Part shown: positions 1 to 5,601 of the stretch, piece by piece | Layout of the letters: every line of letters begins with the position of its first letter | Numbering within the stretch: the first letter of the stretch is position 1 | From: a bacterium | GTDB taxonomy: Bacteria > SM23-31 > JAUVVT01 | DNA: 5,601 bases | Direction of reading: 5' to 3' | Assembly: GCA_030616165.1 (NCBI GenBank) | Contig: JAUWXV010000238.1 | Location: 1-5,601 of the forward strand | The notes under the pieces: generated by a model | What the model saw: only the letters and a program-made list of their open reading frames with translations | What the model was told of the DNA's origin: nothing | Database searches by the model: none | Position numbers and translations under genes: made by a program

Positions 1-389
1 AAGAAATAGAAAGATTGAAAGAAAAAAGAACTGAACTTATGTATTATCTTAATGCGGAAGGAATGAAAAAAGTGATGCTTGACTCTGACATAGCGATATC
101 TGCAGGAGGGCAGACATTATGTGAACTTGCGAAGGTCGGAGTTCCTACAATAGCAGTAGCAGTTGCGGATAATCAATTAAATCATGCACAGGGTTGGGAA
201 AAATCGGGATTTATTGAATATGCCGGGTGTTGTGAGTCTAAAAAACTATTAGAAAAGATTTTAAAATCCTTAAACAAATTATTAGATTATAATGTAAGGA
301 TAGAAAAAATAAAGATTGGAAGGTTTTTAACAAAAGACGATGGTGCTAACAATATTGTAGATTTTTTAATGAGTTATGTGCTGTATTAG
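1..389 (+). CDS. SpsG/PseG-like UDP-sugar hydrolase, C-terminal part (5' end outside window)
   Basis: This is the C-terminal part of a larger gene. The frame is open from the first full codon (base 3) and ends at TAG 387-389, so the TTG at 15 is probably an internal leucine and not a start. About 129 residues are visible, against roughly 270-340 for the family. Bases 99-116 encode SAGGQT, followed by an ELAxxGVPTI segment and then ADNQ, with its NQ at 171-176. This is the nucleotide-binding signature of the C-terminal domain of GT-B fold proteins such as PseG, SpsG and MurG. PseG-type enzymes remove UDP from a 2,4-diacetamido-trideoxyhexose in the cytoplasm, giving the free sugar used by the synthase encoded next. 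That neighbour and the SpsF-like gene at 4046 favour the SpsG/PseG reading over a glycosyltransferase. The N-terminal catalytic residues are outside the window, so the exact reaction stays open. Confidence 0.75.
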   Translation, partial: EIERLKEKRTELMYYLNAEGMKKVMLDSDIAISAGGQTLCELAKVGVPTIAVAVADNQLNHAQGWEKSGFIEYAGCCESKKLLEKILKSLNKLLDYNVRIEKIKIGRFLTKDDGANNIVDFLMSYVLY

Positions 390-472: not shown

Positions 473-1540
473 ATGTCTCAATTGAAAAAGGTAAAAATTG
501 GGGATAGATTAGTTGATGATGGAGAGAAGTGTCTGATAATTGCAGAGGCAGGAAGTAATCATGACAGAAAATTTGAACAGGCTTTGAAACTAATAGATAT
601 TGCTGTAGAAGCGAAGGCAGATGCGATAAAATTTCAGTTATTCAGAGCCGAAAAGATGTATCCAAAAATTTTCAAAAAGGTTGATTATCTTGAAAAGTTA
701 GGAATTAAAAAATCTATATATGATATTATTAAAGAGATGGAAATGCCTTATGATTGGATACCTAAAATTTCTGAATATTGCAAAAAGAAAAATATAATTT
801 TTTTATCAACTCCATTTGATAAAAAAAGTGTTGATATATTGGACGAATATGTTCCTGCTTTTAAAGTGGCTTCATATGAATTAACACATATCCCTTTAAT
901 AACAAATATTGCTAAAAAGGGCAAGCCTATGATAATATCTACAGGAGCTTCAAACCTTGAGGAAATACGTGAAACAGTTGATGCTGTTTATAAAATAGGT
1001 AATAATGAAATATGTTTAATGCAGTGCACCGCCAAATATCCTGCTCCATTGGAGTCAATTAATCTGCGTGCGATTAATACATTAAAAAGAGAGTTCGGAG
1101 TACCAGTGGGATTATCCGATCATAGTCAGGAACCTTTATTAGCACCATGTTTAGCAGTTGCAATAGGTGCAAATTTGATTGAAAAGCATTTTACTATAAA
1201 TAAATATTTACCAGGTCCTGATCATTTATTTGCTCTTGAACCGAGTGAATTGAAAGAGATGGTTTCCGGAATAAGAAAAGCTGAAAATCTCCTCGGCAGC
1301 GGTGATAAAGTTCTTCAGGAAGTCGAACAAGAATTAGTGAAATATAGAAGAGCTGTTTTTACTATTAAAAATATAAAAGAAGGTGAAGTTTTATCGGAAA
1401 ATAACATAGCTATTTTAAGAAAACCGGGAACAGGTGAAAATTTTATATTTCCAAAAGAATATAAAAATATAATTGGTAAAAAGGTAATTAAGGATTTACA
1501 TGCAAATTATTGTTTAACTTTTGAAGATATTGAGTCTTAA
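473..1540 (+). CDS. NeuB/SpsE-family nonulosonic acid synthase with C-terminal SAF domain
   Basis: A cytoplasmic enzyme that condenses phosphoenolpyruvate with an N-acyl hexosamine to form a nine-carbon nonulosonic acid. The 355-residue length is normal for the family. The TIM-barrel domain (about 20-275) shows IIAEAGSNH (22-30), AIKFQ (51-55), STPFD (112-116), FKVAS (130-134), STGAS (156-160), CTAKYP (185-190), GLSDHS (213-218), IEKHF (236-240) and GPDH (248-251). His217 and His239 match the two metal-binding histidines of Neisseria NeuB. The SAF (antifreeze-like) domain covers about 293-350 and contains RKPGTG (316-321), whose arginine corresponds to the substrate-contacting arginine of that domain. 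The sequence does not decide between sialic, legionaminic and pseudaminic acid. The AEAGSNH and KFQLFRAEK stretches look less like typical PseI (AELSANH), which slightly disfavours pseudaminic acid. The ATG at 473 has a good ribosome-binding site. Confidence 0.92.
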   Translation: MSQLKKVKIGDRLVDDGEKCLIIAEAGSNHDRKFEQALKLIDIAVEAKADAIKFQLFRAEKMYPKIFKKVDYLEKLGIKKSIYDIIKEMEMPYDWIPKISEYCKKKNIIFLSTPFDKKSVDILDEYVPAFKVASYELTHIPLITNIAKKGKPMIISTGASNLEEIRETVDAVYKIGNNEICLMQCTAKYPAPLESINLRAINTLKREFGVPVGLSDHSQEPLLAPCLAVAIGANLIEKHFTINKYLPGPDHLFALEPSELKEMVSGIRKAENLLGSGDKVLQEVEQELVKYRRAVFTIKNIKEGEVLSENNIAILRKPGTGENFIFPKEYKNIIGKKVIKDLHANYCLTFEDIES

Positions 1541-1575: not shown

Positions 1576-2361
1576 GTGGTTCAAAAAAAAATTAAAAAGA
1601 TTAAGGAATTTTGGGATGAGCAGGCTGAAAAGTATGGAGAAGAATATTTGGCTACAATTCCTGATAAAATATTAAAAGATTTAGAAATAAATAACATTTC
1701 AAAATATCTTGATTCAGGTAAATTAATTCTTGATGTAGGTTGTGGAAACGGTTTTTCTACTATTAAGTTTGCAGAGACTTATAAAAGTTGTTTTTTAGGG
1801 ATTGATTATTCTAAGGGTATGATAAAAAATGCAGTTAAAAATCTCAATAAAAAGAATGAAGATATAAAAGAGAGGCTGTTTTTTGTCATTGGGGATATTC
1901 TTGAATTGCCTTTTCCTGAAGAAAAATTTGATATTGTTATTTCTGATCGATGTCTTATCAATCTTGTAAATATTAAATACCAATTGAAGGCTATTGAAAA
2001 TATATGGAAAGCTCTAAAAAAAGGCGGAATATATGTAATGTGTGAAGATACACTTGAAGGCTTGAAAAAAATAAACGAATTGAGGAAAATGGTTGACCTT
2101 TATGAAATTCCAATGCGTTGGCATAACCTTTATCTTAGTGAGGGAAAAATTTTTAGTAATATTACTGATAAATTTTCACTTGAAGTTATTGATAATTTTG
2201 GAAGCTTATACTATATAGCTTCAAGAGTTTTTAATGGCAAACTGGCTAATATTGAAGGAAAAGAACCTGATTATCTTCATCCTATTAATGTAATAGCTGG
2301 AAAATTACCAAGTATTGGAGATTATTCACCATTAAAAATTTTCGTTTTAAAAAAAATTTAA
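1576..2361 (+). CDS. Class I SAM-dependent methyltransferase
   Basis: A 261-residue protein with a Rossmann-type methyltransferase core. Motif I, DVGCGNGFS (53-61), binds S-adenosylmethionine. GID (75-77) supplies the acidic residue expected to contact the ribose. GDILELPFPEEKFDIVISD (106-124) forms the next strand and loop, and GGIYVMCED (150-158) lies in the late core. The region after about 165 is variable and may hold the acceptor-binding part. The GTG at 1576 is the only usual start codon after the in-frame stop at 1564-1566, and the next methionine is at residue 82, beyond motif I. No Shine-Dalgarno sequence is evident, so the start is reasonable but not proven. The gene sits between the synthase and the formyltransferase, which suggests O- or N-methylation of the locus sugar or an acyl substituent on it. 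The acceptor cannot be read from the sequence. Confidence 0.85.
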   Translation: MVQKKIKKIKEFWDEQAEKYGEEYLATIPDKILKDLEINNISKYLDSGKLILDVGCGNGFSTIKFAETYKSCFLGIDYSKGMIKNAVKNLNKKNEDIKERLFFVIGDILELPFPEEKFDIVISDRCLINLVNIKYQLKAIENIWKALKKGGIYVMCEDTLEGLKKINELRKMVDLYEIPMRWHNLYLSEGKIFSNITDKFSLEVIDNFGSLYYIASRVFNGKLANIEGKEPDYLHPINVIAGKLPSIGDYSPLKIFVLKKI

Positions 2362-2375
2362 TATTGCAATAAATT

Positions 2376-3329
2376 ATGAAAAAAATAGGCTTTATAGGTG
2401 GAGTTGAAGTAAGCTGGTATTGTCTTGAGGCAATTTGTGTTTATGGCATAAAACCGGTTATTGTTTTCAGTTATGATGAGAGTTTAAAACATAGGTCTGG
2501 CTATAAGAGTTTTGATGACCTCGCATTAAAATATGGATTTGAAATTGTAAAGACAAGAGATATTAACAGTGAAGAAAATATTCAAATATTAAAAGAGAAA
2601 AGTCTTGATGTGTTGTTTGTCATAGGTTGGTCTCAGCTTGTAAAAAAGGAGATTCTTGATATTACTTCCATGGGGTGTATTGGGGTTCATCCTACAAAAC
2701 TTCCGGAAGGTAGGGGGAGAGCTCCAATACCCTGGACATTGATTAAAGGTTTGGAAAAAAGCGCCGTAACTATATTTTTTCTTGATGAGGGTGCAGATTC
2801 AGGTAATATTATTTTACAAAAGGATTTATATATTAGTATCCATGATGATGCCAAAAGTCTTTATAAAAAGGTGCTGGATATTCACATTGAATTGATAAAT
2901 GAGGTTTTACTAAAAATTTTAAATGATAATGTTAAATCTCAACCTCAAGATAATACACAAGCAACATATTGGAAAAAGAGAAAACCAGAAGATGGTATTA
3001 TTGAATGGAGTAAAAAAACAATTGAACTTTATAACTGGATTAGAGCCTTAACACATCCATATCCTGGCGCTTTTACTTTTTATAATGGTAAAAGGATTTA
3101 TATTTGGAAGGCAGAGGCAGTCAATGTTTCAAGAGATAATTTAGAAAAAGAACCTGGTAAGATTATTGGTAAAGTGATTGGGACATGTGAAGATAATAGT
3201 GGCATTATAGTCGCTACAACTGATGGTTTTTTAATTTTAAGAGTGGTGCAATTTGAAAGTGAGAATGAGATAAATCCTGTTAATTTAATAGAAACAGGTA
3301 GATTGAAAGTCGGTGAAAAGTTTAAATAA
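2376..3329 (+). CDS. Sugar N-formyltransferase-like protein (Fmt/ArnA-type fold)
   Basis: A 317-residue protein with the two-domain layout of folate-dependent formyltransferases. The N-terminal catalytic domain (about 1-185) begins with KKIGFIGG and carries GVHPTKLPEGRGRAPIPW (103-120) and DEGADSGNI (137-145). His105 and Asp141 fit the catalytic His and Asp of the family. The usual Asn two residues before the His is Gly103 here. The C-terminal domain (about 205-310) has the Formyl_trans_C pattern: PEDGIIEW, then WIRALTHPYPGAFTFYNGK. Such enzymes move a formyl group from N10-formyltetrahydrofolate to an amine. A housekeeping methionyl-tRNA formyltransferase is possible in principle, but the neighbours are all sugar genes and no peptide deformylase gene lies nearby, so a sugar-amine acceptor is inferred. 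It starts 14 bp after the methyltransferase and has no visible Shine-Dalgarno, which suggests co-transcription. Confidence 0.85.
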   Translation: MKKIGFIGGVEVSWYCLEAICVYGIKPVIVFSYDESLKHRSGYKSFDDLALKYGFEIVKTRDINSEENIQILKEKSLDVLFVIGWSQLVKKEILDITSMGCIGVHPTKLPEGRGRAPIPWTLIKGLEKSAVTIFFLDEGADSGNIILQKDLYISIHDDAKSLYKKVLDIHIELINEVLLKILNDNVKSQPQDNTQATYWKKRKPEDGIIEWSKKTIELYNWIRALTHPYPGAFTFYNGKRIYIWKAEAVNVSRDNLEKEPGKIIGKVIGTCEDNSGIIVATTDGFLILRVVQFESENEINPVNLIETGRLKVGEKFK

Positions 3330-3343
3330 ATTAAATATATAAT

Positions 3344-4036
3344 ATGAAAAACAGAGTATTAGTTGTTGCATCACATCCTGATGATGAGGTTTTAGGGTGT
3401 GGAGGAACAATTGCTAAACATATAATTGACAGGGATAAAGTTTTTGTGGTAATTTTGGGAGAAGGGATAACATCAAGAGATGAAGAAAGGGATGCTGAAA
3501 AGAGAAAAAGGGAGATGGAAACTCTTAGGAAACAAATTCATAAAGCAGGAAAGATTTTGAATGTTTCTGATATTTATACATATGATTATCCGGATAACCG
3601 CTTTGATACTGTTGCACTTCTTGATATTATAAAAACTATAGAAAAAGTGAAGGAAGAGGTTAAGCCTGATATAATTTATACACATCATTATGGAGATTTG
3701 AATATAGACCACAGGATAACATTTGATGCAGTTATGACCGCCGCAAGACCTGTTCAGGGTGAATCAGTAAAAGAGATATATTCATTTGAGATTCCTTCTT
3801 CAACAGAGTGGTATTTTTCTTCCCCAAAGAATTGTTTTATGCCGAATGTATTTATAGATATATCAGAAACTATTGAAAAAAAGTTGCAGGCGTTAAAAGA
3901 ATATAAAAGTGAAGTGCGCCAATTTCCGCATCCAAGATCGCCTGAGGCTGTTGAATCTATTGCTAAAAGACGGGGGAGCAATTCTGGTCTAAAATATGCC
4001 GAGGCTTTCTGTTTAGTCCGCTCAATAAGAGTGTGA
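3344..4036 (+). CDS. PIG-L/LmbE-family N-deacetylase
   Basis: A 230-residue protein of the zinc-dependent PIG-L family, whose members remove acetyl groups from N-acetylated sugars (as in GPI-anchor, mycothiol and bacillithiol synthesis). The hallmark HPDDE is at 11-15 inside VVASHPDDEVLGCGG, giving two metal ligands and the catalytic Asp. The second motif, HHYGDLNIDH (114-123), supplies the remaining metal-binding histidine. The C-terminus HPRSPEAVESIAKRRG (196-211) followed by GLKYAEAFCLVR (215-226) is typical of the bacterial LmbE-like branch. Length and motifs are complete, so activity is expected. It has no signal peptide or membrane segment and is therefore cytoplasmic. It follows the formyltransferase gene by 14 bp, and a free amine is what that enzyme would need. 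The substrate is inferred to be an N-acetylated intermediate or product of this locus. A thiol-biosynthesis role (BshB/MshB) is less likely in this context. Confidence 0.9.
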   Translation: MKNRVLVVASHPDDEVLGCGGTIAKHIIDRDKVFVVILGEGITSRDEERDAEKRKREMETLRKQIHKAGKILNVSDIYTYDYPDNRFDTVALLDIIKTIEKVKEEVKPDIIYTHHYGDLNIDHRITFDAVMTAARPVQGESVKEIYSFEIPSSTEWYFSSPKNCFMPNVFIDISETIEKKLQALKEYKSEVRQFPHPRSPEAVESIAKRRGSNSGLKYAEAFCLVRSIRV

Positions 4037-4045
4037 GCATTATAT

Positions 4046-4789
4046 ATGAAAATTGTATCCACAGTTGAAGCAAGAATGGGTTCATCGAGACTGCCCGGAA
4101 AGACCGTGATGGAGATACTTGATAAACCTATGCTTGAACTTTTAATAGAAAGACTCAAAAGGTCAAAATTAATAGATGAAATTGTTATTGCAACAACAAT
4201 TAATCCAAAAGATAATTTGATTGCTGAATTAGCTAAAAAAATTGGTGTTAAATGTTTCAGGGGAAGTGAGGAGGATGTTCTTGGTAGAGTTCTTAATGCC
4301 GCAAAAAGTGTAAATGCGGATATCATTGTAGAAATTACAGCAGACTGCCCTCTCATCGACCCGGATGTTGTGGATATGACTATTAGGGAATACTTGAATA
4401 ACGATTATGATTATGTGTGCAATATAAATGCCCCAGAAAGAACTCCAATTTTAAATTCAAATTTTCCATCAGGATTAGAAACACAGGTATTTTCTGTAAA
4501 AGTGCTGGAAGAAGTAGCACAATTAACCAATGATCCATCTGATAGGGAGCATGTTTCTATTTATATTTATATGCATCCAGATAAATTTAAGGTCTTTTGC
4601 ATTAAAGCGCCTGAAGAATTGAATTATCCGAATCTTTGGTTAACTGTTGATTATAAAGAGGATTTCGAAGTGATAAAGAAGATATATGAGTCTTTGTATC
4701 CAAAAAACCCGGAGTTTTCTTTCCTTGATGTTATAGAATTTTTAAAGAATGACCCGGTGTTGAAATTGAGGCTTGAGGGGAGAGATTGA
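4046..4789 (+). CDS. SpsF/NeuA-like CMP-sugar cytidylyltransferase
   Basis: A 247-residue nucleotidyltransferase with the GT-A type Rossmann fold of the SpsF (COG1861) branch. It is expected to use CTP to activate the nonulosonic acid as CMP-sugar in the cytoplasm. The N-terminal nucleotide-binding loop is EARMGSSRLPGK (8-19). Then come IVIATT (46-51), FRGSEEDVLGR (71-81), EITADCPLIDP (96-106), whose acidic residues probably bind metal, SDREHV (165-170) and LWLTVDYKEDFEVI (197-210). Length and motif order are those of a complete family member. SpsF genes occur beside NeuB-like spsE and PseG-like spsG in the Bacillus subtilis sps operon, and homologues of both are in this window. The ATG is 9 bp after the deacetylase stop with only a weak GTGAG upstream, so translational coupling is plausible. 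CMP transfer is assigned from family and context. Confidence 0.88.
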   Translation: MKIVSTVEARMGSSRLPGKTVMEILDKPMLELLIERLKRSKLIDEIVIATTINPKDNLIAELAKKIGVKCFRGSEEDVLGRVLNAAKSVNADIIVEITADCPLIDPDVVDMTIREYLNNDYDYVCNINAPERTPILNSNFPSGLETQVFSVKVLEEVAQLTNDPSDREHVSIYIYMHPDKFKVFCIKAPEELNYPNLWLTVDYKEDFEVIKKIYESLYPKNPEFSFLDVIEFLKNDPVLKLRLEGRD

Positions 4790-4867: not shown

Positions 4868-5443
4868 ATGAATACAATAAAATATGATGTTTTTATAAAA
4901 GGTAAGCTGGTCGATTTGGTTTGCCTAAATGAGGAGGTAGTGGAAAGATCAAATTGGTATAATTGGTTTAATGATGAAGAAAATATGAAATTTATGCAGA
5001 AACATTACTTTCCAAATACGAAAACACAACAATTAAACTTTTATAGAAATGAAATTGAAAATAGTAAAACTAAATTGCAATTGGGAATCGTTCATAAAAA
5101 AGATAATAAATTAATCGGGACTATCTCGTTAAATTACATTGACTTTTTAAATAGAAAATGTGAAATATCAGGATTTATTGGAGAAAAAAAATATCAAAAT
5201 ATTAAACTTTTCATGGATGCAAACAAGATTATCATAAAGCATGCTTTTGAGAATCTGAATATGCATAAAATTTATGGAGGTACTATACTAAAAGAAATAT
5301 CATCGATGTATTGCAGAGTATTAGGATTTAAGGAAGAAGGTATAAAAAGAAGAGAAATTTATAAAAACGGTAAATATAATGATGTATATTTGATTGGGCT
5401 TATTAAGGAAGAATATTATGCAAAACTTCAAAAAAATACTTGA
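4868..5443 (+). CDS. GNAT-family N-acetyltransferase, RimJ/RimL or PseH-like
   Basis: A 191-residue protein of the GNAT fold. Visible landmarks are the N-terminal NWYNWFNDEENMKFMQ (29-44), KLIGTISL (81-88) as a central strand, GEKKYQ (105-110) before the acetyl-CoA loop, HAFENLNMHKIYGG (125-138), and the C-terminal YCRVLGFKEEGIKRR (148-162) with YKNGKYNDVYLIGL (165-178). The last segments are common in acetyltransferases of sugar and flagellar-glycosylation loci, where PseH acetylates the 4-amino group of a UDP-amino sugar. The loop after GEKKYQ reads NIKLFMDANK and lacks the glycines normally expected for acetyl-CoA pyrophosphate binding (Q/RxxGxG/A). The fold assignment is good, but the activity is less certain. 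The context suggests N- or O-acylation of the nonulosonic acid precursor. Its last 26 bases overlap the next gene. Confidence 0.8.
   Translation: MNTIKYDVFIKGKLVDLVCLNEEVVERSNWYNWFNDEENMKFMQKHYFPNTKTQQLNFYRNEIENSKTKLQLGIVHKKDNKLIGTISLNYIDFLNRKCEISGFIGEKKYQNIKLFMDANKIIIKHAFENLNMHKIYGGTILKEISSMYCRVLGFKEEGIKRREIYKNGKYNDVYLIGLIKEEYYAKLQKNT
5405..5412 (+). promoter_or_regulatory. Ribosome-binding site for the right-edge gene, inside the acetyltransferase gene
   Basis: AAGGAAGA ends 5 bases before ATG 5418, inside the coding sequence of the acetyltransferase. It is a main reason for calling the overlapping gene that follows. Confidence 0.6.
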
Positions 5444-5601
5444 ATTGGTCTATAAAAAATCCCCATTTCAAAAAAAGAAAATAGAAAAACATCTCTCAAA
5501 AAGAGATAAAAAGTATTTTCAAAATGCAGAGAAATTCTCAACTGAGTATGCTGGATATTTAGAAAATCAAAATATACCGTTAGATTATGCAGTAGACGCA
5601 T
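5418..5601 (+). CDS. Unidentified protein, N-terminal part (runs off right edge)
   Basis: The frame starts at ATG 5418 and stays open to the end of the window, giving 61 residues (MQNFKKILELVYKK at the start, IPLDYAVDA at the end). It overlaps the acetyltransferase gene by 26 bases in a different frame and has a strong ribosome-binding site, so it is probably a real, coupled gene of the same operon. The visible part is lysine-rich and polar, with no signal peptide, membrane segment or catalytic motif. The segment FSTEYAGYLENQNIPLDYAVDA loosely recalls the region before the SAM-binding core in some methyltransferases of glycan loci, but this is an impression from memory and should not be used as an assignment. 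Confidence 0.65.
   Translation, partial: MQNFKKILELVYKKSPFQKKKIEKHLSKRDKKYFQNAEKFSTEYAGYLENQNIPLDYAVDA

Follow-up and report, generated by a model that had tools for sequence, protein, structure and literature searches.

The formyltransferase-like gene and the PIG-L/LmbE-type deacetylase gene that lie side by side in the DNA analysed here (5,601 nucleotides; hereafter, the window) quite probably form, within a nonulosonic acid operon, a cassette for N-acyl exchange in which the acetyl group on the GlcNAc-derived nitrogen is replaced with a formyl group. A preliminary description of this DNA had proposed such a swap, and the predicted chemistry is supported by the conserved linkage of the two genes in other genomes and by the 5-N-formyl-legionaminic acid cluster of Halorubrum sp. 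PV6 with its apparent PIG-L gene. All genes in the window are on the + strand, and the central order is NeuB, methyltransferase, formyltransferase (FT), PIG-L and SpsF:

3..389, + strand: 3' part of pseG/spsG (UDP-sugar hydrolase), truncated at the contig start and corresponding to about 219-278 of the TIGR03590 PseG model
473..1540, + strand: NeuB/PseI-family nonulosonic acid synthase, 355 aa (NeuB 294 bits, E 1.1e-87, plus SAF)
1576..2361, + strand: class I SAM methyltransferase with a GTG start (Methyltransf_31 match)
2376..3329, + strand: G-x-H formyltransferase (FT), 317 aa, the proposed N-formyltransferase of the freed amine (Formyl_trans_N and Formyl_trans_C)
2631..2633, + strand: Ser86 codon of FT, invariant in the G-x-H clade and missing from the N-x-H families compared
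2682..2690, + strand: G103-V-H105 of FT, with Gly at the catalytic Asn position of the N-x-H motif
3344..4036, + strand: PIG-L/LmbE-type N-deacetylase, 230 aa, proposed to free the amine (PIG-L E 2.3e-27)
4046..4789, + strand: SpsF-type cytidylyltransferase, 247 aa, for CMP activation (CTP_transf_3 E 2.8e-30)
4868..5443, + strand: GNAT acetyltransferase, with possible PseH-like acylation of the 4-amine (PseH 24 bits, below cut-off)

The arrangement first described holds. The open reading frames of FT (2376-3329) and PIG-L (3344-4036) are both intact and 14 bp apart, the deacetylase has complete HPDDE (residues 11-15) and HHxxDxxxDH (HHYGDLNIDH) motifs, and the pair lies between the NeuB gene (473-1540) and the SpsF-type gene (4046-4789), with the methyltransferase gene (1576-2361) also between NeuB and FT. 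The synthase has both the NeuB and SAF domains, and its scores against NeuB_NnaB (344 bits) and PseI (316 bits) are both below the equivalog cut-offs. An open frame at 5394-5600, which overlaps GNAT at its end and exits the contig, had no family match.

The window is the entire contig C104 of a host assembly of 3.74 Mb in 343 contigs. Exactly two PseG matches were found in the host genome, one at the start of C104 (about model positions 219-278) and the other at the end of contig C141 (model positions 1-112). The pseG gene is apparently divided between these two contig ends (window 1-389; G000:C141 1-400, L215), and about 106 model positions are absent in between. Since the two fragments are complementary and at contig ends, C141 and C104 probably abut within pseG. 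On C141, the PseG fragment is followed by genes for an SpsF-type cytidylyltransferase, a methylase (172 bits against the family of pseudaminic acid biosynthesis-associated methylases, cut-off 112), PseC (equivalog, 500 bits against a cut-off of 424) and PseB (equivalog, 519 bits against 408). In the window itself, no PseI, PseF or PseH equivalog exceeded its cut-off (316 <340, 36 <206 and 24 <93 bits, respectively). Read from these complementary fragments of unjoined contigs, the full operon is probably pseB-pseC-methyltransferase-spsF-pseG-neuB-methyltransferase-FT-PIG-L-spsF-GNAT. The host has a separate Fmt on contig C169, and the identification of FT as the Fmt of the host was rejected.

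The designation of FT as formyltransferase-like in the preliminary description agrees with the fold and with the profile matches (Formyl_trans_N, PF00551, 79.7 bits against a cut-off of 26.1, E 3e-22; Formyl_trans_C, E 1.3e-21), but the loss of the usual catalytic Asn had been overlooked. Canonical N10-formyl-THF transferases (ArnA, Fmt, PurN and the sugar N-formyltransferases) have an Asn-His-Asp triad. In FT, the Asn is replaced by Gly103 (IGVHPTKLP, compared with FNLHGSLLP in ArnA), whereas His105 and Asp141 are retained, so that the triad is Gly103-His105-Asp141. Judged from its residues, FT may work like a formyltransferase and is not counted here as a canonical member; its active site by itself would not secure formyl transfer. 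The formyltransferase domain of ArnA (with formyl-THF and UMP) was the best match to an AlphaFold2 model of FT (pLDDT 96), at Z 35.2 and an rmsd of 1.8 A for 298 residues. Because His105 and Asp141 are kept, the model is confident and the ArnA domain is matched, FT is likely a working enzyme of the formyltransferase fold.

We placed FT in a quick tree of 118 sequences with SH-aLRT support, in which 63 of the 64 Gly-bearing sequences formed one clade (SH-aLRT 98). The remaining one, L012, has an independent Gly in another formyltransferase branch, and thus the Gly alone is insufficient to define the clade. We compared 59 sampled clade members against a set of 53 N-x-H proteins comprising Fmt, ArnA-like, purine-type and other small sugar-type enzymes. 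Gly103 and Ser86 were invariant in the clade (59/59) and found in none of the N-x-H proteins (0/53); Phe134 and Arg115 were also enriched in the clade. Residues other than Asn outside the clade were Ala in an Fmt-like protein (L026) and Leu or Val in two formyltransferase-fold proteins of L193. The Gly was considered as the mark of a dead enzyme; this was set aside, with the residue invariant across 59 diverse members and His and Asp retained. It is our guess that Ser86 substitutes for the catalytic Asn. The FT of L047 (7998-9929, 644 aa) carries a fused NAD(P)-binding oxidoreductase-like region at its C-terminus. Haloarchaeal loci (for example L042, 11066-11788; L061, from 8999) have a second formyltransferase, of the N-x-H type and about 240 aa, alongside the G-x-H one in the same nonulosonic acid locus.

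The preliminary description had named an absence of conserved linkage in other genomes as grounds for refutation; the linkage proved to be conserved. One genome per species was scanned with a three-sequence FT profile, using the pattern GRGRAP[IM][AP]W and one for a segment preceding the catalytic Asp, so that loci were chosen without regard to the Gly or to a PIG-L neighbour. The scan gave 80 loci; the window and four plasmid loci bring the total to 85. PIG-L is in the same locus as FT in 55 of the 85 (window included), and in 37 loci the two genes are within 60 bp or overlap, often by 1-14 bp, in both gene orders. After exclusion of 22 loci of an actinobacterial (Nocardiopsis/Glycomyces) side-clade and of L125 (an ordinary N-x-H formyltransferase, probably Fmt), about 54 of the remaining 62 loci hold both genes, directly adjacent in 37. 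By contrast, PIG-L was found within about 1.5 kb in none of 33 control loci obtained via Fmt- and ArnA-type proteins, whereas 50 of 84 G-x-H loci have one by the same measure. The paired loci belong to ten bacterial phyla (Chloroflexota, Thermodesulfobacteriota, Bacillota, Nitrospirota, Pseudomonadota, Planctomycetota, Bacteroidota, Cyanobacteriota, Actinomycetota and one WOR-3 genome) and to haloarchaea. G-x-H proteins of the PIG-L-less side-clade (L069, L072, most of L075-L097 from Nocardiopsis, L102, L106 and L109) often have G, E, H, Q or F instead of the catalytic Asp. A search of 98 genomes across the domain with FT recovered mostly Fmt and ArnA rather than the G-x-H clade; in six genomes of the host phylum, only the member in the window belongs to the clade, and no relative was confirmed in viral contigs scanned with the FT protein alone.

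Three types of locus hold FT together with PIG-L. The NeuB nonulosonic acid loci include the window, L046, L047, L052, L053, L059, L061, L076, L081, L092, L103, L150 and others. In the second type (L101, L105, L110, L116, L119-L121 and L123), a Bac_transf sugar-phosphate transferase gene adjoins the pair, together with genes for a LegC/PseC-like aminotransferase, a NeuD/PglD-family acetyltransferase and an FnlA/PseB-like dehydratase. Bac_transf lies beside the pair in L063, L067, L098 and most of L100-L123, which hints that the formyl swap there may concern the sugar that initiates a glycan. The minimal loci L098 and L114 have the sugar-phosphate transferase, FT and PIG-L, and no aminotransferase, NeuD/PglD or FnlA/PseB-like gene was recognised nearby; these gene sets fit a dependence of FT on PIG-L. 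The third type comprises flagellin loci (L048, L050, L058, L060, L064, L068 and L071) that encode, besides PIG-L and FT, a transketolase in split form, a short-chain dehydrogenase, a GH57-like protein and an ATP-grasp ligase whose C-terminal domain is of the L-amino acid ligase type (LAL_C2), possibly for an undescribed flagellar sugar pathway. L066 and L084 also carry this transketolase/dehydrogenase/ATP-grasp/PIG-L/FT/GH57-like set, which is mostly flagellin-linked and mostly without NeuB. We regard it as evenly balanced whether a broader reading holds, that a widespread sugar formyltransferase clade with Asn changed to Gly (and Ser86 perhaps used instead) makes, in tandem with PIG-L, a portable acetyl-to-formyl exchange cassette that serves nonulosonic acids, bacillosamine-/FucNAc-type initiating sugars and flagellar sugars in bacteria and archaea.

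The deacetylase matches the PIG-L profile (PF02585) with 96.4 bits against a curated cut-off of 28.2, and H11, D13, D14, E15, D122 and H123 are invariant in an alignment of 35 PIG-L sequences. A survey of 386 genomes across the bacterial domain found close relatives (E <= 1e-30) in 18 genomes besides the host. NeuB is nearby in 12 of these 18 loci, and thus this type of PIG-L is characteristic of nonulosonic acid loci; a formyltransferase-fold neighbour is present in only about five, a looser association than the one seen from the FT side. The closest relative in the survey, from L191 (58% identity), is followed directly by a GNAT gene, and no formyltransferase was found in that locus. In the NeuB loci L204 and L206, the neighbours of PIG-L are HisH-like and HisF-like proteins, along with another protein that by eye resembles N-acetyl sugar amidotransferases (no Pfam match), perhaps for an acetyl-to-amidine route. 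In another NeuB locus, L193, PIG-L is flanked by the two small formyltransferase-fold proteins mentioned above (7513-8157 and 8831-9538, with Val or Leu at the catalytic Asn position). A wider rule, that PIG-L would free a nitrogen and a partner re-decorate it, fits the GNAT and amidotransferase-like partners.

In legionaminic and pseudaminic acids, N5 is the C2 nitrogen of GlcNAc and is acetylated from the start, and N7 is the C4 nitrogen, which is free after the aminotransferase step. Since N5 derives from the N-acetyl group of GlcNAc, a 5-N-formyl group requires deacetylation; since the C4 amine is already free, only the C2 acetyl group needs removal before formylation. PIG-L is the obvious candidate for this deacetylation. 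It would hydrolyse the UDP-GlcNAc-derived N-acetyl group (at C2 of the hexose or C5 of the nonulosonic acid), and FT would add a formyl group, most likely from N10-formyltetrahydrofolate, to the freed amine. For the window, the expected product would be CMP-activated, and the host probably makes a 5-N-formyl pseudaminic-acid-like sugar. What we infer in this model is both activities, which step comes first, the pathway stage (hexose precursor, free acid or CMP-sugar), the donor of the formyl group and the pseudaminic configuration.

Such a sugar has an archaeal counterpart: in Halorubrum sp. PV6, the S-layer glycoprotein is reported to bear 5-N-formyl-legionaminic acid (Zaretsky et al. 2018, PMC6137143). 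The genes reported are HrrPV6_1046 (LegC), 1047 (LegB), 1048 (LegF), 1049 (LegG), 1050 ("possibly" an N-formyltransferase), 1051 (NeuD) and 1053 (LegI); HrrPV6_1052 is absent from the text, as is the word deacetylase (PMC6137143). By searching the family of a haloarchaeal match, we found the locus L150, in which six consecutive open reading frames of 1140, 1026, 723, 1164, 954 and 630 bp are each 1 bp longer than the published PV6 amplicons (1139, 1025, 722, 1163, 953 and 629 bp, with 1053 bp for LegI; PMC6137143). These are followed by PIG-L (669 bp, L150 9839-10507) and NeuB (1059 bp), both on the opposite strand. Because the six lengths match in order, L150 would be strain PV6 or a very close one; this identity is drawn from lengths and order rather than sequence letters. 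By its position in L150, the unnamed PV6 gene slot (HrrPV6_1052, GenBank MH673034) is presumably PIG-L. This PIG-L is the only protein of its family in the L150 genome, which has three Formyl_trans_N proteins, one of the G-x-H type and two with the purine-type NVHPSLLP motif.

Alternatively, each enzyme might have a nitrogen of its own as target: FT would formylate the free 4-amine left by PseC, in a PseJ-like manner giving a 7-N-formyl sugar, and PIG-L would expose the second nitrogen to some other modification, such as one by the GNAT protein (4868-5443). The presence of this GNAT gene in the window operon and the L191 locus, with GNAT after PIG-L, agree with such a division, as does the activity on the 4-amine ascribed to PseJ, a solved formyltransferase. 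However, the formyl group in PV6 is on N5, not N7 (PMC6137143), L098 and L114 have the pair with no recognised aminotransferase nearby, and FT and PIG-L are often packed more tightly with each other, by the short overlaps given above, than either is with GNAT or PseC. We consider this alternative unlikely. Less likely still, the G-x-H protein, having lost the catalytic Asn, would carry out some other one-carbon or acyl transfer in place of formyl transfer, or hydrolyse formyl-THF, so that the pair makes a different N-substituent. The Gly in all 59 sampled members and the invariant Ser86 do indicate an altered active site under selection and not decay; on the other hand, the fold as a whole is retained together with His105 and Asp141, and the sole formyltransferase other than the purine type in the PV6 genome, which makes a 5-N-formyl sugar, is of the G-x-H type.

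The neighbourhood might also be incidental, FT and PIG-L being common genes of polysaccharide islands in separate pathways, and relatives of PIG-L do occur in NeuB loci without FT. Against this, the two genes adjoin in either order, across three types of glycan locus, in haloarchaea as well as ten bacterial phyla, with none in the 33 controls, which makes coincidence very improbable. Acetyl-to-formyl exchange by the pair is the reading we prefer.

N-formyl sugars are usually explained by formylation of the amine left free by an aminotransferase; the deacetylase-formyltransferase pair would account for formyl groups on initially acetylated nitrogens. In the searchable literature, outside which most subscription journals lie, we found no report of PIG-L together with a formyltransferase and no paper that dealt with PseJ or with which residues of sugar formyltransferases are catalytic. 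Among the matches listed, none of the nonulosonic acid papers included PIG-L and the "2-formamido" literature was unrelated chemistry only. Within that literature, the Asn-to-Gly clade, the step of deacetylation and the wide occurrence of the cassette appear to be undescribed, and the chemical outcome, 5-N-formyl, already has its archaeal precedent. The pair would also suggest what the gene left unnamed in the published 5-N-formyl-legionaminic acid locus does and serve as a genomic marker for N-formyl sugars of this kind. Furthermore, the conserved loss of the Asn puts a basic question of formyl transfer within reach of mutagenesis and crystallography.

Among known systems, the best structural matches of the PIG-L model were BshB and diacetylchitobiose deacetylase (PDB 6p2t, 8bgn), which share the PIG-L fold and motifs and GlcNAc-type N-deacetylation; the window protein differs in being about 24% identical, in scoring far below the BshB1/BshB2 cut-offs, and in its locus context. 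For FT, the nearest solved structure by both sequence and fold is the N-terminal UDP-L-Ara4N formyltransferase domain of ArnA (PDB 2bln, 5j63), with the same two-domain fold and the His and Asp of the triad, but Asn102 of ArnA corresponds to Gly103, and Ser86 and Phe134 also differ. The substrate of the ArnA domain is a free 4-amine, and no deacetylase is involved. PseJ, in pseudaminic acid biosynthesis, probably also acts on the 4-amine as it stands, with no deacetylation step, giving a 7-N-formyl sugar; it has the formyltransferase fold in common with FT (PDB 6ci2, 6ci4) and is a distant match (E 4e-8). The preliminary description could name no characterised pathway with this exact gene order. 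The PV6 cluster HrrPV6_1046-1053 (PMC6137143) is a partial precedent, as it combines a NeuB synthase, a CMP-sugar synthase, a formyltransferase of the G-x-H type and, judged by position, PIG-L in one locus, although the order differs: PV6 follows a legionaminic route with a NeuC-type LegG and has PIG-L on the opposite strand with neuD between it and the formyltransferase gene, whereas the window belongs to a route of the PseB/PseC/PseG type and has FT next to PIG-L.
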